The notes under the pieces: model-generated | What the model was told of the DNA's origin: nothing | What the model saw: only the letters and a program-made list of their open reading frames with translations | Databases searched by the model: none | Position numbers and translations under genes: made by a program | Source of the DNA: Paracoccaceae bacterium | GTDB taxonomy: Bacteria; Pseudomonadota; Alphaproteobacteria; Rhodobacterales; Rhodobacteraceae | Direction: 5' to 3' | Assembly (NCBI GenBank): GCA_003545125.1 | Contig: DQCI01000239.1 | Span: 1-21,456, forward strand | DNA: 21,456 nucleotides | In this document: piece by piece, positions 2,348 to 21,149 of the stretch | Position numbering within the stretch: the stretch's first letter is position 1 | Layout: each line of letters begins with the position of its first letter

Positions 2348-2819
2348 GCAGGCGAGAGTGCGGCGGCGGCGGCAGGGGGTCAAGCGGTGACGGTCGCGGT
2401 GGGGCTCACCAAAGCGCCCGGACGACGCGCGGACGCAGATTGCTATGCTCTCGGCTACGCACGCGCCCTGCCCCCGGTAGGTTGAAATGGTTAACGAAAG
2501 GACAATGCGACACTCTAGGTAACAGATTGTTTTTAAAGCATTGTTGCGTTCCGATAGGGGAACGGTTTCCTAGGAAACTGACCCCGGTTCCCTAGGAAAC
2601 CGGCAAGTTCAGGCGGTTTGGTTTCAGACGTGCCCTGCTTGCTCGGTCTGGCACTTTCTTGGTGCGATCTGGGCGTGAAACCTGCGTCGTCCTGCCCGGT
2701 AATGGTTTCTGAGGCCCGCACCTGCAAGACAGGCCGGCCGCCCGGCCCGATGACCCATCCCCACAGGAACCTGACCCCAGGCACCACCGTCCGCGTTCTG
2801 CCGCGGCGCTGCGGAGCGT
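2348..2819. other. 472-bp non-coding gap between glnE and the RatA/Coq10 gene
   Basis: No convincing gene is seen; the open frames here lack family-like sequence and good ribosome sites. It is locally AT-richer than the rest of the window (about 2480-2580). It holds a GTTAAC near 2490, an inverted repeat ACAATGC/GCATTGT (2502-2508 and 2538-2544) and the paired CTAG-centred palindromes at 2562-2603. It probably contains the glnE promoter on the minus strand, but no confident -35/-10 pair can be assigned. Confidence 0.6.
2562..2603. repeat. Palindrome array A: two tandem CTAG-centred palindromes
   Basis: Unit A1 contains the perfect 14-bp palindrome GTTTCCTAGGAAAC (2565-2578, centre 2571.5). 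Unit A2 is CCGGTTCCCTAGGAAACCGG (2584-2603, centre 2593.5), palindromic except for one mismatched pair. The centres are exactly 22 bp apart. The spacing, unit length and GGTTTC/GAAACC arms match arrays B, C and D elsewhere in the window, so I treat it as a member of the same family. It could instead be a two-site operator. CTAG is generally scarce in such genomes, which makes a duplicated CTAG core stand out. Confidence 0.75.
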
Positions 2820-3281
2820 CTAGCTCGCATAGAGCACCTTCGCGCGCTCCTCGAAAGCCCGCACGATCCGCTGCATCGCCTCGTGGAAGACCACGCCGAT
2901 CACCTTTTGCAGCACCGCGTTGCGGAACTCGAAATCGACAAAAAACGATACCTCGCAGCCGCCGCCGTCCTGTGCCGGGGCATCGGCGAATTGCCATCTC
3001 GAGCGCATGTGTTTGAACGGCCCGTGGAGGTATTCGATATCGAGCTTCAGGTTCGGCTCATCGAGCAGCACCCGGCTGCCGAATTTCTCGCGGAACACCT
3101 TGAAACTCACCACCAGGTCGGCCTCCATCTTCTGGGTCCCGTCGCCCTGCGGCACCACCGACCGGATCCGCGCCGCCGAGATCCAGGGGATGAATTCCGG
3201 GTAGCGCATCACATCAGCGACGAGGTCATACATCTGCCGCGCCGTGTACGGCATGCGCCTGGTTTCGCCATGTGTCGGCAT
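2820..3281 (-). CDS. RatA/Coq10-type START-like (SRPBCC) lipid-binding protein
   Basis: This 153-residue protein fits the Coq10/RatA family of SRPBCC fold proteins, which bind ubiquinone-like lipids and support respiratory quinone function. The name RatA toxin is also used for close relatives. The sequence shows the family's opening (YTARQMYDLVADVMRYPEFIPW, about residues 12-33), a central beta-rich segment (VVSFKVFREKFGSRV) and a long C-terminal helix (VFHEAMQRIVRAFEERA). Length is normal for the family. The start at 3281 is supported by AAAGGG about seven bases upstream of the ATG. It is divergent from hpt with about 100 bp between them. In many alphaproteobacteria this gene lies beside lipA; here lipA is about 4 kb away. 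There is no signal peptide. Coq10-like ubiquinone chaperone is the preferred role; toxin activity is unsupported by the sequence. Confidence 0.92.
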   Translation of the reverse strand: MPTHGETRRMPYTARQMYDLVADVMRYPEFIPWISAARIRSVVPQGDGTQKMEADLVVSFKVFREKFGSRVLLDEPNLKLDIEYLHGPFKHMRSRWQFADAPAQDGGGCEVSFFVDFEFRNAVLQKVIGVVFHEAMQRIVRAFEERAKVLYAS

Positions 3282-3382
3282 GTCGCCCTTTCAACGCGTG
3301 ATCTGACCCCAACTGGGCCTGTGCTTTGGCTCGCGATTTGCCTAAGCTGACGGCAGGATGCAAGCAGCGCAAGGGGGCGCCG

Positions 3383-3937
3383 ATGCCAACGCGGCCATAT
3401 GTCATAGACGAGATGATCTCGGCAAAGACCATCGCGGCCCGGGTGGAGGCGCTGTCGAAAGACATCCACGACGCCTTCTCGGATACCGACAAGCTCGTGG
3501 TCGTGGGGCTCCTGCGCGGGTCCTTCGTCTTCATCGCCGACCTCGTGCGTGAGATCGATCTGCCGATCGAGGTCGATTTCATCGAGGCGAGCTCCTATGG
3601 AGACTCGACCGAATCGAGCCGGGAAGTGCGGATTCTCAAAGACTTGCGGGGCGCAATTCACCATCGCGACGTGCTCGTTGTGGAAGACATCGTCGACACC
3701 GGCTACACGCTCAAACATGTCGTCGGGCTGTTGAAAGCGCGCAGACCCGCGCGGCTCAAGACGATCGCCCTGCTCGACAAACCGTCGCGCCGCGAGGTCG
3801 ATATCCAGGCCGATTGGACCGGGTTCGAGATCCCCGACGAATTTGTCGTCGGCTATGGGATCGATTTCGCCCAACGCAACCGCAACCTGCCCTACATTGG
3901 CAAGGTGCGGTTCAGCGACGAGGAACAAGGAACCTGA
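3383..3937 (+). CDS. hpt: Hypoxanthine(-guanine) phosphoribosyltransferase
   Basis: This enzyme transfers phosphoribose from PRPP to hypoxanthine or guanine, salvaging purines to IMP/GMP in the cytoplasm. The 184-residue protein carries the PRPP-binding signature [14 protein letters not shown] at residues 97-110, with the acidic pair E101/D102. It also has the family's flexible-loop region ([19 protein letters not shown], about 70-88) and the C-terminal [17 protein letters not shown]. Length matches bacterial Hpt (about 180). The start at 3383 is chosen over an in-frame ATG at 3326 because AAGGGGG sits five bases upstream and the protein then begins in family register. The stop is followed four bases later by a tiny leader-like ORF and a small membrane-protein gene, so these may be cotranscribed. 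Confidence 0.97.
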
Positions 3938-3940
3938 TTA

Positions 3941-3970
3941 ATGAATTTCAATCAGTGTCTTACGGTATGA
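3941..3970 (+). CDS. Possible 9-codon leader peptide ORF (MNFNQCLTV)
   Basis: ATG at 3941 is preceded by AAGGAA (3927-3932) at eight bases, the best ribosome binding site in this stretch. The frame encodes MNFNQCLTV and stops at TGA 3968-3970, overlapping the ATG of the next gene (3967-3969) in an ATGA junction. The opening ATGAATTTCAAT closely resembles the start of the next gene, ATGAACTTCAAC, 26 bp further on. It may be a translated leader coupling translation to the small membrane protein, or a relic of a 26-bp duplication of the original start. Whether it is translated cannot be known from sequence alone. Confidence 0.35.
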   Translation: MNFNQCLTV

Positions 3971-4155
3971 ACTTCAACCCGCGCCAGCTCTTGCGCATGG
4001 CCCGCTGGGCACGCAACCCTCCGGGAGAGAAGCGGGTAAAACTGGTGCTCGCGGTGATCGCGATTGCCCTGGCGATCTGGGGGCTGGAGCGGCTCTTCGG
4101 CACGCCGGACTGGATGCTGATCGAAGGCCAACGCTCGGGCCGTTTGTCGCGGTGA
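3967..4155 (+). CDS. Small single-pass membrane protein, unknown function
   Basis: A 62-residue protein beginning MNFNPRQLLRMARWARNPPG. It has a basic amphipathic N-terminus, one predicted membrane helix (KLVLAVIAIALAIWGLERLF, about residues 25-44) and a short polar tail. The positive-inside rule puts the basic N-terminus in the cytoplasm. The hydrophobic profile and in-frame continuity argue that it is a real gene rather than a shadow. Its own ATG lacks a good ribosome site; translation may be coupled from the 9-codon ORF ending in ATGA at 3970. It lies 29 bp after hpt on the same strand, suggesting cotranscription. I do not recognise a named domain and assign no function. An upstream in-frame start inside hpt (3814) exists but would overlap hpt heavily. 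Confidence 0.72.
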   Translation: MNFNPRQLLRMARWARNPPGEKRVKLVLAVIAIALAIWGLERLFGTPDWMLIEGQRSGRLSR

Positions 4156-4303
4156 CCGGTGAGTTGCATGGAACGGCGAACGGTTAAACTATCGCCACCA
4201 ACCCATTGTTTTTCATACGTGTCACGGCTGTTAGAGCCCCCCCTGGCAGTCCGCCGCAGTCCGCCGCCCGCGTCCCGCCCATGTATCCTTGCCACACAAA
4301 CGG

Positions 4304-4328
4304 AAAAACACCGAGGTCGCACCCCCGG
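4304..4328 (-). terminator. Probable intrinsic terminator of the LysR-type gene
   Basis: Read on the minus strand, CCGGGG (4328-4323) pairs with CCTCGG (4316-4311) around a six-base loop. There is one G-U pair, and after two bases come five T residues (4308-4304). It lies about 50 bp beyond the stop of the LysR-type gene. Confidence 0.6.
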
Positions 4329-4376
4329 CAAACCCACCACCGCAAGGCCGCACCGCCGCCGCGCAGAATCGCCTCG

Positions 4377-5267
4377 TCATCCGCCCGCCTTCGTCTGCCC
4401 GCTTTCGTCGCCCGGCACGGCCGCCATCTCCAGCGCATTGGCAAGCGCGCGCAGGAGCATGTCGCGCACCGCCCTGATCCGGGGCACTTGCGCGAAATCG
4501 GCGTGGCTCGCCACCCAGACGTCGACATGCATCTGCGGCAGGATGTCATCGATCCGGACCAACCGCCGGTCGCCGTCCCCGAGCACGCAGGGCAGGATCG
4601 CACGCCCTTGCCCGGCTGCCGCCATTTCCCGCAGCACCGGGAAACTGTCCGCCCGACCCGCGATCTCCGCCTTGCCGACGTTCCGGTCCAACCACGCCGA
4701 CGGCGCCGACCGGTGCAGCGTTCCACCGAAGCCGAGCCATCCCGCCTCGCCCCCCGGCGCGGCGTAAACCGCAAACCGCAGCCGCCCGGCCCGCGCGCCC
4801 ACCAGTCCCGCCGGCAGCTCGACCGCCGGGCGCACCGCGATATCGGCATCGAGCCGGCCAAGGTCGGCCGGCTGGTTCTGGGCGTTGAGCTCGATCGTCA
4901 GCCCCTCGGCCGCGCTCATCAGCCGGGCCACGATCGGCGCCAGAACGGTCAGGCAAAGCGTGTCGGTCGAGGTCACCCGTACGGTCCCCGCCAACGGCGC
5001 GCGGGCGGCGTCCAACGCCCGGGCAACCCCGAGTGCGGCCTCTTCCATCGCCTGCATCGCGGCGATGATCCGACCGCGGCCGGGCGCGACCCGGTAGCCG
5101 CGCGCGGTGCGGTCGAAGACCGTAATCCCGGTCGCTTGCTCGAAACTCGACACCCGTCTCAGCACGGTGGCATGGTTGACACCGAGAGCCCGCGCCGCTC
5201 CGGACAACGAGCCCGCCTCGGCCACCGCCCGCATGACCCGGACGTCATCCCAATCAAACCTGTTCAT
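4377..5267 (-). CDS. LysR-type transcriptional regulator
   Basis: A 296-residue LysR-family regulator. The N-terminal winged helix-turn-helix occupies about residues 5-62 (DWDDVRVMRAVAEAGSLSGA, then ARALGVNHATVLRRVSSFEQ, then FDRTARGY). A LysR-substrate domain follows from about residue 88, poorly conserved as usual. The start at 5267 puts the protein in family register with GGAGG 12 bases upstream. An in-frame ATG at 5288 lies ahead of that ribosome site, and one at 5372 would put the gene far into the divergent promoter region. It is transcribed away from the cytochrome c genes at 5402, the classical arrangement for a LysR regulator of its neighbour. The intergenic inverted repeat ATCTGT-N20-ACAGAT (5290-5321) is a candidate binding site. 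The ligand is unknown. Confidence 0.95.
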   Translation of the reverse strand: MNRFDWDDVRVMRAVAEAGSLSGAARALGVNHATVLRRVSSFEQATGITVFDRTARGYRVAPGRGRIIAAMQAMEEAALGVARALDAARAPLAGTVRVTSTDTLCLTVLAPIVARLMSAAEGLTIELNAQNQPADLGRLDADIAVRPAVELPAGLVGARAGRLRFAVYAAPGGEAGWLGFGGTLHRSAPSAWLDRNVGKAEIAGRADSFPVLREMAAAGQGRAILPCVLGDGDRRLVRIDDILPQMHVDVWVASHADFAQVPRIRAVRDMLLRALANALEMAAVPGDESGQTKAGG

Positions 5268-5289
5268 ATTCGCACAGAACCTCCGCATA

Positions 5290-5321
5290 ATCTGTGAGTT
5301 CCCTTCGGTTTGATAACAGAT
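5290..5321. promoter_or_regulatory. Inverted repeat in the LysR/cytochrome c divergent promoter region
   Basis: ATCTGT (5290-5295) and ACAGAT (5316-5321) form an inverted repeat with a 20-bp spacer inside the 134-bp divergent intergenic region. It lies 23 bp upstream of the regulator start and about 80 bp upstream of the cytochrome gene. Location and size suit a LysR-type tetramer site; the assignment is by position only. Confidence 0.4.
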
Positions 5322-5401
5322 ATTCTGCCAAGAGTGACACCCAACCAAACCGCCCCAATCAAGGCGCCCCAACCAAGTTACGATGAACCCAACAGGAGAC
5401 G

Positions 5402-5878
5402 ATGATGCCCAAGTTCCGCGCCCCTCTGCTCAGCCTCGCAGGTGCCGCTGTCGCCATCGCGGTTTTCGCCGGTCCCGGCGCCGCCCAGGACGTGCCCGCC
5501 GCCGTCAAGGCCCGCCAAAGCCAGATGCAGCTCTACGCGTTCAACCTCGGCACCCTCGGCGCGATGGCCAAGGGCGAGGCCGAGTACGATGCCGAGGCAG
5601 CACAGGGTGCCGCCGACAACCTGGTGGCGCTGACCTCGCTCGCCGCCGGCCCGATGTGGGCCCCCGGCACCGACGACATGAGCATCGACGGGACGCGGAC
5701 CCTGGCGACGATGTGGGACAACTTCCCCGACGTCATGGCCAAGGGTACGGCCCTCGCCGAAGCAGCCGGGGGAATGGCTGCAGCCGCTGGCACCGATCTC
5801 GCCAGCCTGCAAGCCGCCATGGGCCCGCTCGGCGGCGCCTGCAGCGCCTGCCACAAGGCCTACCGCGCCCCGGAGTGA
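5402..5878 (+). CDS. Class II cytochrome c (cytochrome c'/c556 type), periplasmic
   Basis: A 158-residue secreted class II c-type cytochrome. A signal peptide (MMPKFRAPLLSLAGAAVAIA through PGAAQ, cleavage probably near residue 29) precedes a four-helix-bundle domain. The single haem site is at the extreme C-terminus, CSACHKAYR (C147, C150, H151), the class II signature. Cytochromes c' bind NO and CO and are linked to NO tolerance; the c556 relatives are six-coordinate electron carriers. Met42 in the first helix (KARQSQMQLYAFNLG) could be a sixth ligand, so c' and c556 cannot be separated. Two adjacent ATGs are possible: AGGAG (5394-5398) is three bases from 5402 and six from 5405, so 5405 may be the true start. 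A terminator hairpin follows, then the diheme cytochrome gene. Divergent from the LysR regulator. Confidence 0.92.
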   Translation: MMPKFRAPLLSLAGAAVAIAVFAGPGAAQDVPAAVKARQSQMQLYAFNLGTLGAMAKGEAEYDAEAAQGAADNLVALTSLAAGPMWAPGTDDMSIDGTRTLATMWDNFPDVMAKGTALAEAAGGMAAAAGTDLASLQAAMGPLGGACSACHKAYRAPE

Positions 5879-5912
5879 GCCTTTCGGGAGTTTGAAACGG
5901 CCCGGAACGACC

Positions 5913-5945
5913 AACCGGCGCGGCACATCCCGCGCCGGTTTCTTC
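5913..5945 (+). terminator. Intrinsic terminator/attenuating hairpin after the class II cytochrome c gene
   Basis: AACCGGCGCGG (5913-5923) and CCGCGCCGGTT (5930-5940) form a perfect 11-bp stem with a six-base loop, followed by TCTTC. The T tract is short, so some readthrough into the next cytochrome gene is possible. Confidence 0.7.
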
Positions 5946-6028
5946 ACCGAAACATGCGCCCAAGCCTCTTGCCGGCGCGACGGTCATGCGTTGCCATGCG
6001 CGCAACCGGGATGACAACGGAGATCCAG

Positions 6029-6922
6029 ATGCGCCGTACCCTCTTCGCCCTCATCCTCATCGGTCTCGTGGTGGCCGCGCTTGGCATCTACCTCACCCGC
6101 CCGCGCCTCGACGGGCCGCAGGTGCTCGACGGGCTCACCGGCGATGCGGCGGCGGGCGCGTTGGTGTTCACCGCCGCAGGCTGCGCCTCATGCCACATGG
6201 CCGAAGGGGCAACCGGCGACGACAAGCTGGTGCTGACCGGCGGCCAACGCTTCCCCTCGCCTTTCGGCACTTTCACGGCGCCCAACATCTCGATGGACCC
6301 AGAGCACGGGATCGGCGGCTGGCGCGCGCTCGATCTGTGGAACGCGCTGCACCACGGCACCTCGCCCGAGGGTCAGCATCTCTACCCGGCCTTTCCCTAT
6401 GCGAGCTATGTGCGGATGACGCCGCAGCAGGTGGTCGATCTCCACGCCTATATCCGGACCCTGCCCGCCGACCCGACGCCGAGCACGCCGCACGATCTCG
6501 GCTTTCCGTTCAACATCCGCGCGAGCCTCGGCGGCTGGAAACTCCTTTACCTGCGCGCGGGCTGGGTCATGGACGGCGACCTGACGCCCGAAGAGACCCG
6601 CGGCCGCGTCATCGTCGAGGCGCTTGCCCATTGCGCCGAATGCCACAGCCCGCGCGATCCGCTTGGCGGGTCGAAGACCGGGGCCGACTGGCTCACCGGC
6701 GCGCCCAACCCCGCCGGCCGCGGCACCTTCCCCGACCTGACGCCGCCAGAGCTCGACTGGTCGACCGGCGATCTCGTCGAGTATTTCACCTCCGGCTTCA
6801 CCCCGGAATACGACAGCGCGGGCGGTCATATGGCGCATGTGGTCGACAACCTCGCGGCTCTGCCGGAGACCGACCGCACCGCCGTCGCGGCCTACCTCAA
6901 GCGCCTGCCGCTCACCGAGTGA
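6029..6922 (+). CDS. Membrane-anchored diheme cytochrome c
   Basis: A 297-residue electron-transfer protein with an uncleaved N-terminal anchor (TLFALILIGLVVAALGIYL, residues 4-22) and two periplasmic cytochrome c domains. Haem motifs are CASCH (C52-H56) and CAECH (C202-H206). Family-like segments APNISMDPEHGIGGW and FPYASYVRMT resemble cytochrome subunits of periplasmic dehydrogenases and related diheme cytochromes of Rhodobacterales. The start at 6029 is chosen because GGAG (6019-6022) lies six bases upstream; earlier in-frame ATGs at 5954, 5996 and 6011 have no such site and would add a non-family extension. It follows the class II cytochrome by 150 bp with a hairpin between, so the two could be an operon with attenuation or separately transcribed. 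A plausible role is passing electrons from the quinol/bc1 side or from a dehydrogenase to a terminal acceptor. Confidence 0.94.
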   Translation: MRRTLFALILIGLVVAALGIYLTRPRLDGPQVLDGLTGDAAAGALVFTAAGCASCHMAEGATGDDKLVLTGGQRFPSPFGTFTAPNISMDPEHGIGGWRALDLWNALHHGTSPEGQHLYPAFPYASYVRMTPQQVVDLHAYIRTLPADPTPSTPHDLGFPFNIRASLGGWKLLYLRAGWVMDGDLTPEETRGRVIVEALAHCAECHSPRDPLGGSKTGADWLTGAPNPAGRGTFPDLTPPELDWSTGDLVEYFTSGFTPEYDSAGGHMAHVVDNLAALPETDRTAVAAYLKRLPLTE

Positions 6923-6992
6923 GGTCCGGCACCGCCGCCGCGACACCGCAGGCCCCGGGCCGGCAAACGCAATCGCCTGCCGCGGGCGGGCA

Positions 6993-7060
6993 CGGTTTCC
7001 GTGCGGAAACCGACACGAATTCCGACCCGGAATTCGATCCGAAATCCGCTTCGGATTTCG
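6993..7060. repeat. Palindrome array B: three tandem hairpins with compensatory arm changes
   Basis: Three perfect 9-bp-arm inverted repeats follow one another. B1 is CGGTTTCCG/CGGAAACCG (6993-7012, two-base centre). B2 is CGAATTCCG/CGGAATTCG (7016-7036, three-base centre). B3 is CGAAATCCG/CGGATTTCG (7040-7060, three-base centre). Centres are 23.5-24 bp apart. The left arms share CG and TCCG ends and differ in the middle; every difference is matched on the other arm. The array lies between convergent genes (diheme cytochrome c and lipA), so a bidirectional 3'-end role is possible, but there is no T tract. Confidence 0.88.
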
Positions 7061-7199
7061 CGCCCCGCGCGTGTCAGGTCATCTCTGCAGAACCGTCAGA
7101 CTGCGCGCCCAAGCACATCGTCGGCGCCTCCCTGCCGACATGCGTCGCGATCGAACCGCGGTGCCGATACACGGGGCTACATGCCCGCCCACATGGGCC

Positions 7200-8150
7200 T
7201 CAGGCCCGCCCGAGTTTCTCCAGCCTTGCCGCGCGCAGCCGCGCGAAATCGTCGCCGGCGTGATAGGATGACCGGGTGAGCGGCGTGGCAGAGACCATGT
7301 GGAATCCCTTGCCATAGGCCGCGTCCTCGTAGGCCTTGAACTCCTCGGGTGTGACAAACCGGTCGACCGCGTGGTGTTTCGGCGTCGGCTGCAGATATTG
7401 GCCGATGGTGATGAAATCGATGTCGGCCGCGCGCATGTCGTCCATCACCTGCATCACCCCCTGCCGGTCTTCGCCCAGCCCGACCATGATGCCCGACTTC
7501 GTGAACATCGCCGGATCCAGCTCCTTGACCCGCTGCAACAGCCTGAGCGAGTGGAAATACCGCGCGCCGGGGCGCACCGTCGGGTAGAGCCCGGGCACCG
7601 TCTCGAGATTGTGGTTGAACACGTCCGGGCGCGCCTTGACCACTACCTCCAGCGCAGCGGGCTCGGACTTGAGAAAGTCGGGCGTGAGGATCTCGATCGT
7701 CGTCTCCGGCGCCTTGCGCCGGATCGCCCGGATCGTCATCGCGAAATGCTCGGCGCCGCCGTCGGCCACGTCGTCGCGGTCAACGCTGGTGATCACCACG
7801 TGGTTGAGCCCGAGCTTGGCCACCGCATCGCCCACCCGGCCCGGTTCGAACGCATCGAGCGGATTGGGCCGTCCGGTCGCGACGTTGCAGAAGGTGCAAC
7901 CGCGCGTGCAGATCTCGCCCATGATCATCATCGTCGCATGGCCGGCGTTCCAGCATTCGCCGACATTGGGGCAGCCCGCCTCCTCGCAGACCGTCGCCAG
8001 CCCGTGCTCGCGCATGATCCGGTGGGTATCGGCATAGCCCTTGCCGCCGGGCGCACGCACCCGGATCCAGCCGGGCTTTTTCGGCTGGGCCTGGTCGGGA
8101 CGGTGGGCCTTCTCGGGGTGACGGCCTGCGGGGGTCTTCAGATCGCGCAT
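7200..8150 (-). CDS. lipA: Lipoyl synthase
   Basis: This radical SAM enzyme inserts two sulfurs into octanoyl groups on lipoyl domains of 2-oxoacid dehydrogenases and the glycine cleavage H protein. The 316-residue protein shows the auxiliary-cluster cysteines C55, C60 and C66 ([12 protein letters not shown]). The radical SAM cluster is C81, C85 and C88 (CTRGCTFC). The C-terminal RSSYHAGD contains the conserved serine that ligates the auxiliary cluster. Length is normal. The start at 8150 has GGAGAG a few bases upstream; an in-frame ATG at 8276 would add 42 non-family residues. It is divergent from the beta-hydroxyacid dehydrogenase gene, with 228 bp between starts. In related genomes lipA is often followed by the RatA/Coq10 gene, which here is separated from it by about 4 kb of other genes. 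Confidence 0.99.
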
Positions 8151-8290
8151 GGTTCTCTCCGTTTGGGCGTATATAGGCAGCGCGGGCGCGGCTGTCACAT
8201 CGAAACGGCGCAAACCCGATCTGTGCACGCCGGGTGGCTCCGGTCGGCACTGGCCGCCACGATCCGGCAAATCCAACGCCGGTCCCGGGA

Positions 8291-8318
8291 ATTTTCGACT
8301 GGTATACTAGTCGAAAAT
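8291..8318. promoter_or_regulatory. 28-bp palindromic operator, GntR/FCD-like, overlapping a -10 box
   Basis: ATTTTCGACT (8291-8300) and AGTCGAAAAT (8309-8318) flank GGTATACT. The whole 28 bp is palindromic except for the pair 8301/8308. The core TGGTATACTA resembles the NGTATACN operators of GntR regulators of the FCD subfamily. TATACT (8303-8308) matches five of six bases of a -10 box, so binding would block a promoter reading toward the dehydrogenase at 8379. No clear -35 is seen. No GntR gene lies in the window, so the regulator must be encoded elsewhere. Confidence 0.75.
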
Positions 8319-8378
8319 GGTGTAGCCAGCTTGGGTGAACCCACGCAGCAATTTCGCAGCAATCTCCTGGAGTCAGCT

Positions 8379-9260: not shown

Positions 9261-9293
9261 GCCCGCCGCCTGCGGGCCGCGATGGCCAGGATT

Positions 9294-9333
9294 GGCCGCG
9301 GGCCCCCGCCGGGGGGCGCGGCCATTTTCGTTT
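9294..9333 (+). terminator. Intrinsic terminator of the dehydrogenase gene
   Basis: GGCCGCG (9294-9300) pairs with CGCGGCC (9317-9323). An inner CCCCC (9303-9307) pairs with GGGGG (9311-9315), separated by a small internal loop. The stem is followed by ATTTTCGTTT. It lies 33 bp after the dehydrogenase stop. Confidence 0.72.
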
Positions 9334-9512
9334 GGCGACGCAAGGGGGCCCGGCGGTTTCGGTCCGGCGCCGGCCTGCGGCACCACGACCCCATCCCGAC
9401 GCACGAGACGCGCACCCACCTGCGCCGCATCGGCACGGCAAAGCCGCGCGCCCCACCCCGGGCACACGCGGCCATGTACTGTGGCGGGACAAAACGCGGC
9501 CCCGCCGGCCGG

Positions 9513-9959: not shown

Positions 9960-9984
9960 GGGGTCCTTCCCGGGTGTGGTTTCT

Positions 9985-10074: not shown

Positions 10075-10117
10075 AGACACGCTTGCGCAACGTCCCGCCG
10101 TCGGCCAGGCTGACCCC

Positions 10118-11329: not shown

Positions 11330-11345
11330 CAAACTGCTAAATCAG

Positions 11346-12126: not shown

Positions 12127-12133
12127 CGCCCGC

Positions 12134-13034: not shown

Positions 13035-13072
13035 TCTCTGCCCGTTCTCTGCTCGTGTCCCGGCGACATTGG

Positions 13073-13378: not shown

Positions 13379-13406
13379 TTCGCCGGCACTGAACAAGGAG
13401 ACCGCC

Positions 13407-15428
13407 ATGGATGCCTCGACGCTGCGCCAAACCCACCCCGATCACTGGATGCGCGCCGCCGCAGTGCGGATGCTCGCCGTCGATGCGGTCCAGGCGGCCA
13501 ATTCCGGCCACCCCGGCATGCCGCTCGGCATGGCCGACGTCGCCACCGTGCTGTTCTCCAAGCACCTCACCTTCGACCCGAAAGCCCCGGACTGGATCGA
13601 CCGCGACCGCTTCGTGCTGTCCGCCGGCCATGGCTCGATGCTGCTCTACGCGCTCCTCCACCTCACCGGCTACGCCGACATGACGCTCGACGAGCTGAAG
13701 AACTTCCGCCAATGGGGCGCGAAGACCGCCGGCCACCCCGAATACGGCCACGCCCAGGGGATCGAGACCACCACCGGCCCGCTCGGCCAGGGCCTCGCCA
13801 ACGCCGTCGGCTTCGCGATGGCCGAGGAGGCGCTACGCGCCCGCTTCGGCAAACGCGTGCAGGACCACTACACCTACGTCATCGCCGGTGACGGTTGCCT
13901 GATGGAAGGCATCAGCCACGAGGCCATCGGGCTTGCCGGCAAACAGAAGCTGTCGAAGCTGATCGTGCTCTGGGACGACAACGACATCTCCATCGACGGC
14001 AACATCTCGCTCTCCGACATCACCGACCAGCGCAAGCGCTTCTCCGCCGCCGGCTGGCAGGTGCTCGACGCCGACGGCCACGACCCGGACGCGATCGACG
14101 CAGCGCTCACCGAGGCGAAAAACTCCGGCAAGCCGACCCTCATCGCCTGCAAGACCCACATCGGCTTCGGCTCCGCGGTGCAGGACACCGCCAAAGCCCA
14201 CGGCACGCCGCTCGGCCCCGACAATATCGCCGCCCTGCGCGAGACCTACGGCTGGCCCTATCCGGCCTTCGAGGTCCCGGCCGAGATCCGTGACTGGTGG
14301 ACGCAGGTCGGCGCCCGCGGCGCCGAGGCGCGCGACGCCTGGCAGAACCGCTTCGACGCGCTCACCGAGCAGCGCCAGAAGGAAATCACCCGGGTCTTCG
14401 ACGGCGCCGCGCCACGCCGGCTCAGCGCCACGATCAAGGCGCTGAAGAAGCAGATCTCCGAGGAAGCGCCCAAGGTCGCGACCCGCAAGGCGTCCGAGAT
14501 GGTGCTGGAAGTGGTCAACCCGATCATGCCCGAGACCATCGGCGGCTCGGCCGACCTCACCGGGTCGAACAACACCTACACCGGCGATCTCGGCATATTC
14601 GAGCCGGAGAACCGCAAGGGCCGCTACGTGCACTACGGCATCCGCGAGCACGGCATGGCGGCGGTGATGAACGGCCTGGTGCTGCATGGCGGTCTGCGGC
14701 CTTACGGCGGCACTTTCCTGGTGTTCACCGACTATGCCCGCGGCGCGATGCGGCTGAGCTCGCTGATGGGCGTGCCGGTCACCTACGTGATGACCCATGA
14801 CAGCATCGGTCTCGGCGAAGACGGCCCGACCCACCAGCCGGTCGAGCACCTGGCGATCTGCCGCGCGACCCCAAACTGCATGACCTTGCGCCCCTGCGAC
14901 ACGATCGAGACCGCCGAGGCCTGGGAACTGGCTCTGACGTCCGAGCGCACGCCCTCGGTGCTGGCGCTCTCGCGCCAGGGCCTGCCGACGCTCAGGACCG
15001 AGAACAAGGTCAAGAACCTCACCGCCCAAGGGGCTTACGTGCTCGCCGAGGCCGAGGCCAAGCGCCGGGCGATCCTGATCGCCACCGGCTCCGAGGTCGA
15101 GATCGCGATGAAGGCCAAGGTGCTGCTCGAAGACGCCGGGATCGGCACCCGCGTGGTGTCGATGCCGTCGATGGAGCTGTTCGCCGCGCAGGACGAAAAA
15201 TACCGCCGCAAGGTGCTGCCGGCTGGCCCCGTCCGGGTCGCCGTCGAAGCGGGTCTGCGCGCCGGCGGCTGGGACCGCTGGCTGCTCGGCGAGCGCGGCC
15301 GCGAAGCCAAGCAGGCCTTCGTCGGCATGGAAGGCTTCGGCGCCTCGGCGCCCGCGGAACGGCTCTACGAGGAATTCGGCATCACCGCCGAGGCCGTGGC
15401 CGGCAAGGTCAAGGCGCTCCTCGCCTGA
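13407..15428 (+). CDS. tkt: Transketolase
   Basis: This thiamine-diphosphate enzyme moves two-carbon ketol units between sugar phosphates in the pentose phosphate pathway (and Calvin cycle where present). The 673-residue protein is full length. The TPP/Mg site motif begins GDGCLMEG at G161. Substrate/cofactor-binding segments include SGHPGMPLG (H35) and [12 protein letters not shown]. The pyrimidine domain contains [13 protein letters not shown] with the conserved glutamate, and [19 protein letters not shown]-terminal transketolase domain ends the protein. AAGGAG seven bases upstream supports the ATG at 13407. The conserved small gene at 15473 follows after 44 bp and is probably cotranscribed. 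Nothing in the sequence says which pathway this copy serves; no Calvin-cycle genes are in the window. Confidence 0.99.
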
Positions 15429-15472
15429 GCCTACCGCGACCGGCACGTACCCAGGAAAAGGCAAGGAACGAC

Positions 15473-15784
15473 ATGGATGATCCAACCGCCCGCTGGGTCC
15501 GGTTAGACACCGAACGCGCCTTCAGAGAGGCCTTCGCCGACAAGCGTTTTGCCGGCGAAGGCTTTCAATTCACGATCCACGCCGACGGGCGCCTGACCGG
15601 CCAGTTTGGCGCCGCGCGGCTCGACGGGCGTTGGCACTGGCGCGACGGCTATTTCTGCCGGACGGCCAGCCTCGACGGCGAAGACCTCGGCCTCGATTGC
15701 GAAATCATCGAATATCGACCCGGCGAAATGCGATACACCCGCGACAAGGGCGCGGGCGAACGAACGGTCGTGGCCTTCGGCTGA
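15473..15784 (+). CDS. Small conserved protein of the GYFCR/RGAG family (often mislabelled dihydrodipicolinate reductase)
   Basis: A 103-residue protein. Its C-terminal half (GRWHWRDGYFCRTASLDGED, then LGLDCEIIE, then MRYTRDKGAGE) matches a small family common in Rhodobacterales, whose members are usually secreted. That family is sometimes labelled dihydrodipicolinate reductase without basis. This copy has no signal peptide: it begins MDDPTARWVRLDTERAFREA and looks cytoplasmic. The two cysteines (in YFCR and LDC) are at the family positions. AAGGA is five bases upstream of the ATG at 15473. It follows tkt by 44 bp on the same strand and precedes palindrome array C. The function is unknown; the family link is from memory of the motif pattern. 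Confidence 0.8.
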   Translation: MDDPTARWVRLDTERAFREAFADKRFAGEGFQFTIHADGRLTGQFGAARLDGRWHWRDGYFCRTASLDGEDLGLDCEIIEYRPGEMRYTRDKGAGERTVVAFG

Positions 15785-15825
15785 CGCGGTGCGCCGAAGG
15801 GTGCATCGAGGCGCCGACCGGCGAG

Positions 15826-15890
15826 ACGGCGTTTCGAAACGCCGTGTCACGCGGTTTCGAAACCGCGTACCTCCCCGCGTTGAAATCGCG
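15826..15890. repeat. Palindrome array C: two perfect 20-bp palindromes plus a degenerate third
   Basis: C1 is ACGGCGTTTCGAAACGCCGT (15826-15845, centre 15835.5). C2 is ACGCGGTTTCGAAACCGCGT (15849-15868, centre 15858.5). Both are perfect palindromes, 23 bp apart. A degenerate third unit with CGCG ends (15876-15890) follows at the same spacing. The array lies between convergent genes. C2 is identical to unit D2 at 21106-21125. Confidence 0.9.
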
Positions 15891-15905
15891 TGCTCGGACC
15901 GGATG

Positions 15906-16301
15906 TCAGAACCGCGCAATCACGAACGGGTTCATCAAGATCACCGACAGGAAGATCGCGCCGAGCGTCAAGACTGCCAGGCTTTCGCCCGTCGTGCGGA
16001 CGTGGTTTCGCCGCCGATCACGCACCAGCTTGAAAACAAGTACCGCCATGGCGACGGGGAACAGGCCGAGGATCGGAAAGGGCGACAGATCCGGCCAGAG
16101 ATACGGCGGGCCGACTGATGCCCATTGCAGAGCGAACAGCGCCGCCGTGGCCGCACAAATGGCCAGGGAAAACTTGTCGCGTCCCCGTGCCGCCACGGCC
16201 AGGAACAAGAAAAGCAGCGGCGTCACCGCGAAATAGGCGGCCACGGCGGCGTTGAAGATCCCGAAACCCGCCCCGTCGAGGACCACGTCAGGCGGCATCA
16301 T
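15906..16301 (-). CDS. Four-helix membrane protein, unknown function
   Basis: A 131-residue protein with about four predicted membrane helices. These are FGIFNAAVAAYFAVTPLLFL, FSLAICAATAALFALQW, FPILGLFPVAMAVLVFKLV and SLAVLTLGAIFLSVILM. A basic loop (RDRRRNHVR) sits between helices 3 and 4 and is probably cytoplasmic. I recognise no named family. It lies three bases after the stop of the DUF808 gene on the same strand, so the two are probably one transcript with coupled translation. Only a weak ribosome site is visible, and a second ATG follows directly (MMPPDVVLD). Convergent with the small gene ending at 15784 across palindrome array C. Confidence 0.8.
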   Translation of the reverse strand: MMPPDVVLDGAGFGIFNAAVAAYFAVTPLLFLFLAVAARGRDKFSLAICAATAALFALQWASVGPPYLWPDLSPFPILGLFPVAMAVLVFKLVRDRRRNHVRTTGESLAVLTLGAIFLSVILMNPFVIARF

Positions 16302-16304
16302 ATC

Positions 16305-17279
16305 TCAATGTCCCGCGGTCTTCTTGCCCATCACCGCCGACACCGCCGGGCCGATCACCCGGGTCGAGAGCGGGATCAGCACGATCCCCCAGACAAGGCC
16401 GAACACCCCGTCCAGCGCCGCCGTGGTGGCCCAGCCCGCGAACCCGGCCCAGGCCGCGCCGACACCATGCGCCACCACTTCCGACAAGTGGTGGATGAAA
16501 TCGTAGATCGGGTGCCAGCCGAGATCGTTCAGCCCGTGCACGACGATATTGCCGCCGACCCAGAGCATCGCCGCGGTGCCCACGATCGTCAGCCCCTTCA
16601 TGAACTTGGGCATGCCCTTGACGAGCCCGCCCCCGACCGCGCGGGTCAGCCCGAGCCGGCCGCGTTCGACCATGCGCAGCCCGAGATCGTCCATCTTCAC
16701 CAGGATCGCCACCGACCCGTAGACCACCACGGTGATTCCGATGGCGACGACCGCCAGAACCGCCGCCTCCATCCAGAAGTTCGACGCCGGGATCGCCGCG
16801 AGCGAAATCGTCATGATCTCGGCCGAGAGAATGAAATCGGTCTTGATCGCGCCCGCAACCTTCTGCTCTTCGAGATGGGTCGGGTCGCCTTCGACATGCT
16901 CGGCCGCGTCGATCACGTGGTCATGCGGGAACAGAACGTGCCAGATCTTCTCGGCGCCCTCGAAACACAGATAACTGCCCCCCAGCATCAACAGCGGCGT
17001 GATCGCCCAGGGCGCGAAGTTCGACAGCAAGAGCCCGAGCGGCAGCAGGATCAGGAGCTTGTTGCGGACCGAGCCCCAGGCGATCTTGCCGACGATCGGC
17101 AGTTCGCGCGCCGGGGCAAAGCCGGTGACGTATTTCGGCGCCACCGCCGCATCGTCGATCACCGCGCCCGCCGCCTTGGCGCCGGCCTTGGCCGCCTGCG
17201 CCGCCACGTCATCGACGCTCGCCGCCGCCACCTTGGCGATCCCCGCCACATCGTCCAGAAGCGCCAGAAGTCCACTCAT
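16305..17279 (-). CDS. DUF808/YedI-type inner-membrane protein
   Basis: A 324-residue integral membrane protein of the DUF808 (YedI) family. The N-terminus MSGLLALLDDVAGIAKVAAA with VDDVAAQAAKAGAKAAGAVI is the family's conserved opening, followed by KYVTGFAPARELPIVGKIAW. Hydrophobic segments lie at roughly residues 74-104, 150-165, 168-192, 233-255 and 283-315. The conserved loop GGSYLCFEGAEKIWH (about 100-114) and EEQKVAGAIKTDFILSAEIM (about 137-156) match the family. AGGTGAG just upstream supports the ATG at 17279. It is divergent from mfd and followed by the small membrane-protein gene. The role is unknown; no transport motif is evident. Confidence 0.92.
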   Translation of the reverse strand: MSGLLALLDDVAGIAKVAAASVDDVAAQAAKAGAKAAGAVIDDAAVAPKYVTGFAPARELPIVGKIAWGSVRNKLLILLPLGLLLSNFAPWAITPLLMLGGSYLCFEGAEKIWHVLFPHDHVIDAAEHVEGDPTHLEEQKVAGAIKTDFILSAEIMTISLAAIPASNFWMEAAVLAVVAIGITVVVYGSVAILVKMDDLGLRMVERGRLGLTRAVGGGLVKGMPKFMKGLTIVGTAAMLWVGGNIVVHGLNDLGWHPIYDFIHHLSEVVAHGVGAAWAGFAGWATTAALDGVFGLVWGIVLIPLSTRVIGPAVSAVMGKKTAGH

Positions 17280-17564
17280 CTCTCACCTCGCCCACCGTTT
17301 CGGCCAAACTAGTGGATCGGCGCGCCTGAGCAAGCCCCGTCGGTCGGTCCGGGGCCGGCGCACCCCGGGGGGGCGCGGCCTCCCGGACCTGCGGTGGCGG
17401 GGCCGATGGATAGAGACATACCGCTGTCGGCCGCTGGCCCGTGCGCGCCTCGTCTTTGGTTGCCAAATACCTCGGGGGGACCGCGGGCCTGCCGCCCCCG
17501 GGAACGGCCGCAAGCATATCCATTCCCGGTTGATCCCGTCGCCCCCCGGGGGTACGCCCCCCCC

Positions 17565-20500
17565 ATGTCCGAAACGCGCCCCATCACCCTGTCGGGAGCC
17601 CCCGAGGGCTTTGACGCCTTGCTCATCGCCCGCGAGCTGGAAAAGACCGACCGCCCGGTCGTCCATATCGCGCGCGATGCCCGCCGCCTCGCGGCGATGG
17701 AAGCGGCGCTCGACTTCTTCGCCCCCGGCGTTCCGCGGCTCACCCTGCCGGGTTGGGATTGCCTGCCGTTCGACCGGGTCTCGCCGAACCCGGACGTCTC
17801 GGCGGCGCGGATGGCGACGCTCGCGGCCCTCACCCACGGCATGCCGACCGACCGCTTCATCCTGCTGACCACGGTCAGCGCCGCGACCCAGCGCATGCCG
17901 GCCCGCGAGGTGATCGCCGAGGCCAGCTTCTCGGCCCGCGTCGGCGACCGGATCGACGAAGCGGGTTTGCGCAGCTTCCTGGTGCGGATGGGGTTTTCCC
18001 AGGCGCCGACCGTCACCGAACCGGGCGACTTCGCGGTGCGCGGCGGCATCATCGACATCTACCCGCCGGGCGAGGCGGGCCCGGTCCGGCTCGATCTGTT
18101 CGGCGACACGCTCGACGGCGCACGCCGTTTCGACCCCGCGACCCAGCGCACCACCGAAAAGCTCAAGGTTGTGGACCTCGCCCCGGTTTCGGAAGTGATC
18201 CTTGACGACCCCGCGATCACCCGGTTCCGTCAAAACTACCGGATCGAGTTCGGCGCCGGCACCTCGGACGACCCGCTCTACGAGGCGGTGAGCGCAGGCC
18301 GCAAGCACCAGGGGCTCGAACACTGGTTGCCGTACTTCCACGACCGGCTCGAGACCCTGTTCGACTACCTCGCGAACGCCAGCTTTTTCCTCGACGACCA
18401 GGCGACCCCGGCGCGGCTCTCGCGCTGGGAGGGCATCGCCGACCAATACGACAGCCGCCGCGAGGCGATGGGGGCGAAGAACCGGCTCGACACAGTCTAC
18501 AAACCCTGCCCGCCCGGGCTGCTCTACCTCGACGACGCCGCCTGGACTGCGGCCACGACGGGCCTGCGGGTGATCGAACTGGCGGCACTTCCCCGCGCCA
18601 CCGGGCTCGGCGTCACCGACGGGGGGGGACGCATCGGGCGTAACTTCGCCCCCGAACGTCAGGCGGAAAAGGTAAACCTTTTCAGCGCCCTCGCGACCCA
18701 CGTGCGCGACAAACGAAAGCAGGGCGCGGTCGTCGTCGCCTCCTATTCCGACGGCGCGCGCGAGCGTCTCAAGGGGCTGCTCGCCGACGAAGACCTCACC
18801 GCCACCGCCGAGATCGCCGATTTCCGCGACCTGCCCGAAGCCGACACCGGCGAGACCGGCGAGACCGGCCCAAAGACAACGGGCGGCGTCTACCTCGCGG
18901 TCTGGCCGCTCGAGCACGGGTTCGAGGGTCCGGTCGGGGCGCAAAGCCTCACCGTCATCTCCGAACAGGACGTGCTCGGCGACCGTCTCATCCGCGCGCC
19001 GAAAAAACGCCGCAAGGCGGAGAACTTCCTCACCGAAGCGGGCGCGCTCAGCGCCGGCGACCTCGTCGTCCACCTCGACCACGGGGTCGGGCGTTACAAC
19101 GGGCTCGAGACGATCACCGCGGCGGGCGCCCCGCATGAATGCCTCGCCCTCGAATATGCCGGCGGCGACCGGCTGTTCCTGCCGGTGGAAAACATCGAGC
19201 TGCTCACCAAGTACGGCCACGACGAAGGCCTGCTCGACAAGCTCGGCGGCGGCGCCTGGCAGGCGAAAAAGGCCCGCCTCAAGGAACGCATCCGCGAGAT
19301 CGCCGACAAGCTCATCCGCCTCGCCGCCGAGCGCGCCCTGCGCAAGGCCCCGGTGCTGGAAGCGCCGCACCACGCCTGGGAGGAGTTCTCCGCCCGCTTC
19401 CCCTACCAGGAAACCGAGGACCAGTTCAGCGCCATCACCGACGTGGTCGACGACATCGCCGCCGGCAAGCCGATGGACCGCCTCGTCTGCGGCGACGTCG
19501 GCTTCGGCAAGACCGAAGTCGCCATGCGCGCGGCCTTCGTCGCCGCGATGGCGGGCATGCAGGTCGCGGTGATCGCCCCCACCACCCTGCTCGCGCGCCA
19601 GCACTACAAGAGCTTCGCCGACCGCTTCCGGGGCCTGCCCGTCCAGGTCGGCCAGCTCTCGCGTTTCGTGCCCGCACGCGAGGCCGAGCTCACCCGCGCC
19701 GGCATCAAGGACGGGTCCATGGACATCGTCATCGGCACCCATGCGCTGCTCGCCAAGGGCATCCGGTTTGACAATCTCGGCCTGCTCATCATCGACGAGG
19801 AACAACGCTTCGGCGTCGCCCACAAGGAACGGCTCAAGGCGCTGCGCTCCGACGTCCACGTGCTGACGCTGACCGCCACGCCGATCCCGCGCACCCTGCA
19901 AATGAGCCTCACCGGGGTGCGCGATCTCTCGATCATCGGCACCCCCCCGGTCGACCGGCTGTCGATCCGCACCTACGTGAGCGAGTTCGACACGGTGACG
20001 ATCCGCGAAGCGCTGCTGCGCGAGCACTACCGCGGCGGCCAGAGCTTTGTCGTGGTCCCGCGGATCAAGGATCTCCCCGAAATCGAGGATTTCCTGAAAA
20101 CCCAGGTGCCGGAGGTGACCCATGTCGTCGCCCACGGGCAGATGGCGGCGGGCGAGCTCGACCGGCGGATGAACGCCTTCTACGACGGCAAGTTCGACGT
20201 GCTGCTGGCCACCACCATCGTCGAATCGGGGCTCGACATCCCCACCGCCAACACCATGGTGGTCTGGCGCGCCGACATGTTCGGCCTTGCCCAGCTCTAC
20301 CAGATCCGCGGCCGGGTCGGGCGCGCCAAGACCCGGGCCTATTGCTACCTCACCACCAAGCCCCGCGCACCGCTCACCGAGGCGGCACAGAAACGGCTCA
20401 AGGTGCTGGGCTCGCTCGACAGTCTCGGCGCGGGCTTTGCGCTGGCGAGCCAGGATCTCGACATCCGGGGTGCGGGCAACCTGATCGGCGAAGAGCAGTC

Positions 20501-21074
20501 GGGCCAGATGAACGAGGTCGGCTACGAGCTGTACCAATCTATGCTCGAAGAGGCGATCGCCAAGATCAAGTCGGGTGAGCTTGAAGGCGTCACCGACACC
20601 GGCGAGACCTGGGCGCCGCAGATCAACCTCGGCGTGCCGGTGCTGATCCCCGCCGATTACGTGCCAGATCTCGACGTGCGCCTCGGCCTCTATCGCCGCC
20701 TGTCGTCGCTTTCGACCAAGGTGGAACTCGAAGGCTTCGCCGCCGAACTGATCGACCGGTTCGGGAAATTGCCCAAGGAAGTCAACACGCTGCTCTTGAT
20801 CGTGCGGATCAAGGCGATGTGCAAGAAGGCGGGCATCGCCCGGCTCGACGGCGGCCCGAAGGGGGCGACGCTCACCTTCCACAACGACAAGTTCGCCAAC
20901 CCCGCCGGGCTGGTCGAATACCTCCAGGCCCAGAACGGCCACGCCAAGGTCAAGGACAACAAGGTGGTGATCCGGCGCGACTGGGCCACCGACGCCGACA
21001 AGATCAAAGGCGCGTTCTCGATCGCCGTGGACCTCGCCGAGAAGGCCGGAACGGTGAAGCGCAAGACTGGATGA
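17565..21074 (+). CDS. mfd: Transcription-repair coupling factor Mfd
   Basis: Mfd displaces RNA polymerase stalled at DNA lesions and recruits UvrA for nucleotide excision repair. The 1169-residue protein has the UvrB-like N-terminal domain (to about 340), a variable linker, and the RNA-polymerase-interacting domain (GDLVVHLDHGVGRYNGLETI, about 500-570). The helicase motor has Walker A GDVGFGKT (643-650), DEEQ (744-747), TATPIPRTLQMSL, and motif VI GRVGRAKTRAYCYL. A TRCF C-terminal domain follows. Length is normal. The start at 17565 (MSETRPITL) is in family register; an in-frame opening from 17394 is GC-rich leader. The only SD-like sequence, GGGGG (17548-17552), is half of a CCCCC/GGGGG palindrome 12 bases before the ATG, so initiation may be weak. 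The linker carries a short repeat DTGETGETG. A palindrome array begins ten bases after the stop. Confidence 0.98.
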   Translation: MSETRPITLSGAPEGFDALLIARELEKTDRPVVHIARDARRLAAMEAALDFFAPGVPRLTLPGWDCLPFDRVSPNPDVSAARMATLAALTHGMPTDRFILLTTVSAATQRMPAREVIAEASFSARVGDRIDEAGLRSFLVRMGFSQAPTVTEPGDFAVRGGIIDIYPPGEAGPVRLDLFGDTLDGARRFDPATQRTTEKLKVVDLAPVSEVILDDPAITRFRQNYRIEFGAGTSDDPLYEAVSAGRKHQGLEHWLPYFHDRLETLFDYLANASFFLDDQATPARLSRWEGIADQYDSRREAMGAKNRLDTVYKPCPPGLLYLDDAAWTAATTGLRVIELAALPRATGLGVTDGGGRIGRNFAPERQAEKVNLFSALATHVRDKRKQGAVVVASYSDGARERLKGLLADEDLTATAEIADFRDLPEADTGETGETGPKTTGGVYLAVWPLEHGFEGPVGAQSLTVISEQDVLGDRLIRAPKKRRKAENFLTEAGALSAGDLVVHLDHGVGRYNGLETITAAGAPHECLALEYAGGDRLFLPVENIELLTKYGHDEGLLDKLGGGAWQAKKARLKERIREIADKLIRLAAERALRKAPVLEAPHHAWEEFSARFPYQETEDQFSAITDVVDDIAAGKPMDRLVCGDVGFGKTEVAMRAAFVAAMAGMQVAVIAPTTLLARQHYKSFADRFRGLPVQVGQLSRFVPAREAELTRAGIKDGSMDIVIGTHALLAKGIRFDNLGLLIIDEEQRFGVAHKERLKALRSDVHVLTLTATPIPRTLQMSLTGVRDLSIIGTPPVDRLSIRTYVSEFDTVTIREALLREHYRGGQSFVVVPRIKDLPEIEDFLKTQVPEVTHVVAHGQMAAGELDRRMNAFYDGKFDVLLATTIVESGLDIPTANTMVVWRADMFGLAQLYQIRGRVGRAKTRAYCYLTTKPRAPLTEAAQKRLKVLGSLDSLGAGFALASQDLDIRGAGNLIGEEQSGQMNEVGYELYQSMLEEAIAKIKSGELEGVTDTGETWAPQINLGVPVLIPADYVPDLDVRLGLYRRLSSLSTKVELEGFAAELIDRFGKLPKEVNTLLLIVRIKAMCKKAGIARLDGGPKGATLTFHNDKFANPAGLVEYLQAQNGHAKVKDNKVVIRRDWATDADKIKGAFSIAVDLAEKAGTVKRKTG

Positions 21075-21083
21075 GCCCGGGCG

Positions 21084-21149
21084 ACGCCGCTTGGAAGCGG
21101 CGTAAACGCGGTTTCGAAACCGCGTTCCCAAGGCGCTTCGAAGCGCCTT
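21084..21149. repeat. Palindrome array D: three tandem 20-bp palindromes after mfd
   Basis: D1 is ACGCCGCTTGGAAGCGGCGT (21084-21103), perfect except for a G/G centre. D2 is ACGCGGTTTCGAAACCGCGT (21106-21125), perfect. D3 is AAGGCGCTTCGAAGCGCCTT (21130-21149), perfect. Centres are 22 and 24 bp apart. Arm sequences differ between neighbouring units while self-complementarity is kept. The array starts ten bases after the mfd stop; no T tract follows. Confidence 0.92.

Follow-up and report, generated by a model that had tools for sequence, protein, structure and literature searches.

The window and its palindrome arrays

We consider a stretch of 21,456 nucleotides (the window, here always the whole stretch at its full length) from a Paracoccaceae bacterium, which is contig C56 of a source genome of 4.35 Mb in 343 contigs that is 89% complete, called the own genome below. 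Family search names six of the eight window proteins tested, namely the products of mfd and of the genes for lipoyl synthase, transketolase, a cytochrome c domain protein, a DUF808 protein and a protein with the polyketide-cyclase fold. The Mfd protein has its closest match (87%) in a Rhodobacterales metagenome-assembled genome (MAG), followed by further MAGs and named Rhodobacterales genera, which places the genome in that order. In the intergenic regions lie tandem arrays of short palindromes of two related kinds, A and B (Table 1), which form a real and unusually regular class at gene 3' ends and are best read, as far as sequence can tell, as serial RNA hairpins.

A first-pass annotation of the window had described four palindromic sites, at 2562, 6993, 15826 and 21084, as a single family. 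Palindromes are indeed present at all four. The window contains five close pairs, where 40 dinucleotide shuffles gave none at all; a palindrome here has an arm of at least 7 and a loop of at most 4, and a close pair has its centres 19-28 bp apart. Within the 6993, 15826 and 21084 arrays the arms vary with pairing retained, as had been stated. The site at 2562-2603 does not belong with kinds A and B, so the single family has to be given up, and a third unit claimed near 15890 proves degenerate, which leaves only two perfect units in the 15826 array. The predicted RNA fold of 21075-21175 consists of three separate hairpins. The 6993-7060 array is flanked by the cytochrome c gene (stop 70 bp away) and the lipoyl synthase gene (139 bp), and the two small genes flanking the 15826 array have no family match at E 1e-5. 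Rfam gives no gathering-score match in the window or in the array loci L218, L083, L215, L228, L248 and L181.

Table 1. Coordinates of the arrays, of mfd and of other repeats. Plain numbers are window positions; L-numbers denote loci or contigs.
Feature	Location	Strand or units	Remarks
Kind A array	21084-21149	units 21084-21103, 21105-21126, 21130-21149	9 bp past mfd stop
mfd (transcription-repair coupling factor)	17565-21074	+	gene call and TIGR00580 above cut-off; 3' end bears the A triple
Kind A array	15826-15868	two perfect units, 15826-15845 and 15849-15868	in a convergent gap, 41 and 37 bp from the two stops
Degenerate third palindrome-like stretch of the 15826 array (CGCG..CGCG)	15878-15892		read directly, not counted as a unit
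Kind B array	6993-7060	units 6993-7012, 7016-7036, 7040-7060	
Kind C doublet	2562-2603	CCTAGG core, centres 22 bp apart	separate dispersed palindrome, outside the A/B class
Kind C, other loci	L084, L092, L148, L165, L167, L206, L208, L214		
Tandem hairpins with a GGGGGC..GCCCCC member	L202:3675-3719, L215:8759-8802, L093:6630-6673, L152:18249-18292		near gene ends, outside kinds A-C
Tandem hairpins behind mfd in two other relatives	L060:9470-9509, L063:9476-9516		unlike kinds A-C
Repeat of about 78 bp	L083:12267-12345, L207:10382-10460, L202:3475-3551, L162:3294-3371		and seven further own loci

Architecture and abundance

Kind A consists of 20-bp palindromes around TTCGAA, mostly with a 23-bp period. 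The own sample holds 115 units in 49 arrays (33 doubles, 15 triples and one of four units), whose half-sites follow the pattern A[A/C]G[C/G][C/G][G/c/a][T/C]TTC and comprise 41 distinct half-sites and 31 distinct 7-nt arms; one recurrent half-site, ACGCGGTTTC, occurs in 19 of the 115 units, a count inflated by the choice of loci. Neighbouring units are separated by spacers of 0-4 nt in 65 of 66 cases. Kind B comprises 12 arrays with 37 units, including one doubtful array (L152:11826-11866) that was put there by a loose rule and is also included below in the 57 arrays with a measurable 3' end and in the B counts for arm identity and for folding. Most B units are 9-bp stems CGnnnnnCG with 2-3-nt loops, repeated every 23-24 bp.

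The distance between centres had been taken by the first-pass annotation for about two helical turns, with the suggestion of proteins on one DNA face. The period is 23 bp in 45 of the 61 own A steps, and its mode is 22 bp in the family relative G238 and 24 bp in another, G307. Since the spacing is 22-24 bp and not the 21 bp of two turns, the placement on one face does not follow; identical units are moreover avoided within an array (see below), and helical phasing is rejected, the period being 22, 23 or 24 bp depending on the genome.

The genome-wide scan for further arrays that had been proposed is positive. The own genome contains 75 sites of the two-centre pattern TTCGAA-N15-19-TTCGAA and 1 site of the control, the same pattern reversed. 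For closer inspection, 20 own loci and eight further contigs were selected for holding the 14-mer CGGTTTCGAAACCG or a longer form of it; the 20 loci together with the window (225 kb) hold 38 arrays, against 0-3 in five shuffles. Counting every kind, 20 contigs off the motif list (202.6 kb) contain 13 arrays, and ten shuffles give 0-3. The other 52 own contigs (528.7 kb), which were taken by number from outside the motif list and are for that reason depleted in motif arrays, carry 12 A, 5 B, 3 C and 6 unclassed arrays. As a rough and low figure, the genome has about 165 A, B and C arrays. All 25 perfect A units in the non-motif own contigs lie within arrays, and this small sample has no single unit.

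Position relative to genes

Gene ends were taken from a custom codon-usage script whose predictions were inspected on the window only. The 61 own A and B arrays lie in 34 codirectional, 19 convergent and 2 divergent gaps, with 2 inside called genes and 4 at contig edges; the background, intergenic gaps of 45 bp or more in the non-motif contigs, is 177 codirectional, 58 divergent and 40 convergent. Among the arrays with a measurable 3' end, 46 of 57 are at most 40 bp from a stop codon (median 14; 46 of 56 without the doubtful B array), which fits the serial mRNA hairpins at 3' ends that the first-pass annotation had offered as a second possibility. The relatives give 16 of 18 arrays (G307) and 21 of 23 (G238) within the same distance. 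In codirectional gaps, 30 of the 34 arrays are closer to the upstream stop than to the downstream start, with medians of 15.5 and 105 bp.

The arrays are rarely followed by a tract that would give U in the transcript. At least four T in the 8 nt past the array edge are found at 3 of 130 ends (own 1/60, congeners 0/12, G307 1/21, G238 1/37), and at least five T at none of the 130.

Units that differ and are predicted to fold apart

Within an array, no two units have the same arms. Identical pairs number 0 of 84 for kind A, against 6.55 in permutations (p 0.0005, a value inflated by the choice of loci), and 0 of 40 for kind B, against 3.12 expected (p 0.015); G004, G307 and G238 also have none, where few are expected. 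Because motif choice inflates one unit, the test was repeated on sets unselected for arm sequence, which are cleaner. Arm identity is again below permutation in 14 own arrays (p 0.028), 19 of G307 (p 0.0036) and 23 of G238 (p 0.025), with a combined p of 2.4e-4, and identity is avoided chiefly in the middle of the stem, at positions -6 to -4.

Since its A units differ, an array is predicted to fold as separate hairpins. In predicted folds of the bare own A arrays, 47 of 49 form one hairpin per unit; when units are reshuffled between arrays a mean of 31.2 of 49 fold apart and none of 60 shuffles reaches 47, and when every array is homogenised to copies of its first unit none of the 49 does so. 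G238 behaves in the same way (22 of 23 real arrays, 18.4 reshuffled with 0 of 60 shuffles as high, and 0 homogenised), and so do the non-motif own contigs, with 14 of 14 against 11.2 reshuffled (6 of 200 shuffles as high).

Orthologous loci in congeners

Six congeners, G001 to G006, of which G004 is a sister species, were compared at orthologous loci. The loci of G004 and G005 were mostly chosen for the presence of arrays, and therefore do not tell how often arrays are conserved. At the L218 junction, which is convergent, a B triple in the own genome corresponds to an A triple in G004 (its locus L181), with 81 and 80 bp between the aligned flanks; the protein ends match on both sides, and both stops are 4-8 bp from the array. 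This exchange of A and B is a single case. Arrays shared with small changes are found in G004 at L081, L084, L090, L150, L215 (at 3799), L217, L221 and L227, where both units of L084 and one of L217 are imperfect, and in G005 at L081 and L090.

From these loci 25 orthologous unit pairs were picked by hand, some own units entering twice (with two congeners) and the loose pair L093-G004 being excluded. Among their 200 stem pair cells, 186 are unchanged, 8 are changed on both sides with pairing kept, and 6 are broken or changed on one side; the central four bases differ in 8 of the 25. The proposal that the palindrome is preserved rather than its sequence thus holds in part. In its favour are the varying arms, the two-sided changes and the swap between sister species; the arms are nonetheless not free, as the half-site pattern (A[A/C]G[C/G][C/G]nnTTC in outline) and the large number of unchanged cells show.

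Other arrays are absent from the orthologous gap. This is so for L215 at 13885 (G004, G005 and G001), L083 at 4257 (G004, G001 and G003), L087 at 6734 (G003), L207 at 5921 (G004 and G005), the window array at 6993 in G004 (a gap of 45 bp against 302 bp in the own genome) and the window array at 15826 in G006 (a 64-bp gap). The L215 gap measures 13 bp in G005, 17 bp in G004 and 21 bp in G001, against 120-128 bp, and of its B array two B units are left in G003 and one hairpin in G002. G005 bears an A array between the tkt and DUF808 genes, comparable to that at 15826 in the window, despite different small neighbour genes. G001 contains a copy, 84% similar, of the 69-bp B array at L083.

Behind mfd, no array is seen in the roughly 200 bases inspected in G001, G002, G004 and G005, and in G003 there is a single B-like hairpin. 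Tandem hairpins immediately follow mfd in two other relatives (Table 1); the two sets are alike, with a compensated stem change between them. Serial hairpins recur at this gene end.

Range across genomes

In a family sample of 295 genomes (one per genus, own included), 15 have at least 12 two-centre matches: the own genome with 75, G216 with 54, G221 with 46, G307 with 38, G238 with 24 and ten genomes with 12-21, among them G020, whose control matches number 8. The remaining 280 have 0-10 matches, with controls of 0-9. Arrays reach high density in a few genera that are scattered over the family. G216 and G221 are known from pattern counts alone; the loci inspected in several relatives contain true palindrome arrays with a vocabulary and period of their own (22 in G238, 24 in G307 and 23 in the own genome). 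In a class sample of 240 genomes (three of the own family, own included) the top counts outside the family are 13 (control 2) and 9 (controls 2 and 4). Counts outside the family are mostly near the control, and among the matches listed, which come from other genomes, none resembles a palindrome array. Collections of mobile elements give no A or B array match in plasmids, no A array in phages and no A 20-mer in viral contigs. AT-rich versions occur in the relatives' loci L135 (from G151), L141 and L145, for example CAAATTTCTTCGAAGAAATTTG, abutting or nearly so with a period of 22-23 bp.

Other repeats

Kind C is a CCRGTTTCCTAGGAAACYGG-like palindrome with a CCTAGG core that occurs singly or as doublets 22 bp apart. 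Around TTTCCTAGGAAA, 14 exact 14-mer cores are found in 8 of 314 loci, all eight in the own genome. For fourteen of 15 cores inspected the nearest gene is 70-218 bp away, and the remaining one overlaps the end of a called gene; the first core of the window doublet is 218 and 242 bp from the adjoining genes. The units of this doublet are almost the same, one pair being mismatched in the second, and the doublet folds as one long hairpin, as do the three other doublets tested. Its folding and its place away from gene ends led us to drop kind C from the A/B class, and it is perhaps an operator or another small repeat.

Further tandem hairpins with a GGGGGC..GCCCCC member, and a dispersed intergenic repeat of about 78 bp, are also listed in Table 1. 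The latter starts with GGGTGGGCGAACTCGGAC, contains GCGCTAAC or CCGCTAAC and ends near TTCGCCCGGGCGAA; the own loci sampled hold 11 copies and a 25-bp partial match, and there are at least 24 matches in G004 and two in G003.

Proposed serial hairpins at transcript ends

The position, the palindromes, the rarity of T-rich tails, the tandem arrangement, the non-identity of units and the one array swap are computed properties of the arrays. What we infer from them is that the arrays are transcribed, that they terminate transcription or block exonucleases, and why they would be selected. The A and B arrays would be transcript-end elements of two to four short hairpins in series, transcribed just past the stop codon, which most likely end or trim the transcript with no need of a U tract. 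Such serial hairpins may stall RNA polymerase, or block the 3'-to-5' exonucleases that trim RNA after Rho-dependent release, or both. Because A units are perfect palindromes, the arrays could be read on either strand. Selection would keep each unit self-complementary and the A units of an array mutually different, so that one long hairpin is avoided. On balance we think it probable, with due reserve, that the A and B arrays are bidirectional tandem hairpins of mRNA 3' ends selected for independent folding.

Several observations weigh against this reading. The predicted RNA fold of 15785-15905 retains the hairpin of the first unit, and part of the unit at 15849 pairs elsewhere. Folding apart is not significant in G307 (18 of 19 against 16.3 reshuffled, 14 of 60 shuffles as high, 0 homogenised), is borderline in own arrays lacking the 14-mer (15 of 15 against 12.3, 14 of 200 as high), and shows no effect in kind B (6 of 12 against 6.3). 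The A half-sites keep features that pairing does not need, namely the outermost A (113 of 115 units) and the T at -3 (112) and -2 (114), and the A loop TCGA is self-complementary, which an RNA hairpin does not require. In oriented arrays all but 5 of the 952 pair cells are Watson-Crick, and one of the 5 is G.U, in a set whose detection favours perfect units; yardstick hairpins at other gene ends show no excess of G.U over A.C in the own genome (75 and 76; G307 5 and 1, G238 6 and 2), and the comparison thus speaks neither for nor against selection at the RNA level. Of the A arrays, two are in divergent gaps and another two fall within called genes. The composition of the flanks speaks in favour of the reading. 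The six bases after an array are 62% C and 3% A (57 own ends) and the twelve before are 54% G, against 31-32% C at 270 other gene ends (C minus G over 20 nt, p 1.6e-9), with a control taken 45-105 nt past stops, a different distance from that of the arrays; the flanks of G307 and G238 have a like composition, on a small number of controls (p 0.04 and 0.13). An outer closing stem between the G-rich and the C-rich flank is not supported, there being no specific pairing in any of four sets (own flanks against mismatched flanks, p 0.15 and 0.37).

Related structures have been described. Terminators have been proposed that consist of hairpin clusters near the stop codon and for which a U tract is unneeded (Gupta & Pal 2021, PMC8355165). 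The A arrays resemble them in having at least two short hairpins less than 15 nt apart and close to the stop. The clusters, as the available portion of that paper presents them, are predicted hairpins of any sequence. The arrays here, as putative terminators, are unlike them in that the palindromes are perfect and recur at a fixed period, half-sites are reused, the units within an array differ from each other, and A and B are exchanged at one junction between species. In the high-GC alphaproteobacterium Methylosinus sporium 5, I-shaped ends lacking a U tract account for 602 of 772 highly structured transcript ends (PMC12403871, from the part of the paper at hand). In this the arrays are similar, 127 of 130 ends being without four T in eight; the same part of the paper describes stem-loop ends and no tandem palindrome family. 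The U tract that directly follows the hairpin of a canonical (L-shaped) intrinsic terminator is thus not a feature of the arrays, four T in eight standing at only the three remaining ends. A bias of stem-loops to 3' ends in 40 genomes has already been reported (PMC1590033, in the sections available), and position alone is therefore not new.

Adjacent hairpins also occur as dispersed repeats among the double-hairpin and repetitive hairpin-forming elements of mitochondria. Unlike the arrays here these are organellar, and they are likened by description only. A CRISPR-like array, with identical repeats and unique spacers, is rejected, there being 0 of 84 identical A pairs, 0 of 40 identical B pairs and A spacers of a few nucleotides. 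We found no description of tandem, mutually different, swappable families in the literature searched, which covered few subscription journals; term searches of the accessible text of a Rhodobacter sphaeroides PNPase paper (PMC7866481) and of PMC3733652 gave nothing on such arrays and no match, respectively.

Alternative explanations

Short palindromic extragenic repeats with characteristic tags, spread by the RAYT transposases, are known as REP and BIME elements (PMC3733652, PMC2817692 and PMC12306157, in the portions available). The arrays could be of this sort, that is, palindromes that are or were mobile through a transposase and persist harmlessly at gene ends with no selected function. 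The short palindromes, present in many copies, extragenic and often grouped, are alike in both; the distribution over scattered genera is patchy, several sites such as that of the L215 B array are free of arrays in congeners, the L083 array has its similar copy in G001, and half-sites recur, partly through the choice of loci. There are nevertheless 41 distinct half-sites, none repeated within an array, and with 31 distinct arms among 115 A units, perfect in their symmetry, the units do not look like copies of each other; no A unit stands singly in the sample. The tags are rare as well, GTAG occurring at the ends or in the spacers of 2 of 61 own A and B arrays and CGTC in 3 of 61, so that no consistent GTAG/CGTC head is seen. 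As to the transposase, the own genome has one Y1 transposase of the RAYT family, which speaks for such an origin, and PF01797 passes the cut-off in only this one of seven congeneric genomes, several of them incomplete; G004 and G005 bear arrays nonetheless, G005 with a weak, stop-containing match. The 8.5-kb own contig that holds the transposase (L199) has no A or B array among those listed. A RAYT as the driver of the arrays is thus not supported, and the different arrays at the L218 junction are unexpected under neutral persistence. We regard the REP-like origin as unlikely; by tag and by transposase the arrays are not REPs, and they plausibly work like the U-less hairpin clusters.

A second alternative is that of operator arrays, where a dimeric DNA-binding protein such as a chromosome organiser or insulator would bind cooperatively to the TTCGAA palindromes. 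The perfect two-fold symmetry that includes the centre, the conserved half-site positions and the near absence of wobble pairs would suit such a protein. The spacing varies from genome to genome and does not amount to whole helical turns, and tandem sites would favour equal units, the opposite of what is observed. Kind B, with another sequence and a mostly unsymmetrical 2-3-nt loop, replaces kind A at one junction, and operators give no account of the strong bias toward gene 3' ends. We consider this quite improbable.

Least probable is a purely mutational product, in which template switching, known to homogenise the arms of inverted repeats (PMC8604942 and PMC3820800, in the parts available), would perfect imperfect repeats and slippage would delete identical neighbours with no selection: five of the eight two-sided changes are of a type unreachable via G.U and only 6 of 200 cells are in a half-way state, which would suit it; still, it would not put arrays within 40 bp of stops, yields neither a fixed period nor a recurrent half-site pattern, and leaves the absence of single survivors of slippage unexplained.

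Implications

Returning to the hairpins of mRNA 3' ends, a further-reaching version is possible and we put it forward tentatively. The arrays may be a bidirectional 3'-end module that codes for folding independence, in which A and B are interchangeable, units are selected against cross-pairing, and the number of hairpins, not their sequence, is what is inherited. If true, such a module would have at least two sequence families of the same geometry, replaceable at one gene junction. In the one alphaproteobacterial transcript-end map cited above (PMC12403871, as far as the part at hand goes), most structured ends lack a U tract, and how such transcripts end or survive therefore matters. A tandem hairpin family with a testable rule, that units must differ, supplies natural variants, including the A/B difference between sister species, and these could show whether hairpins in series act by terminating transcription, by blocking exonucleases or in both ways.

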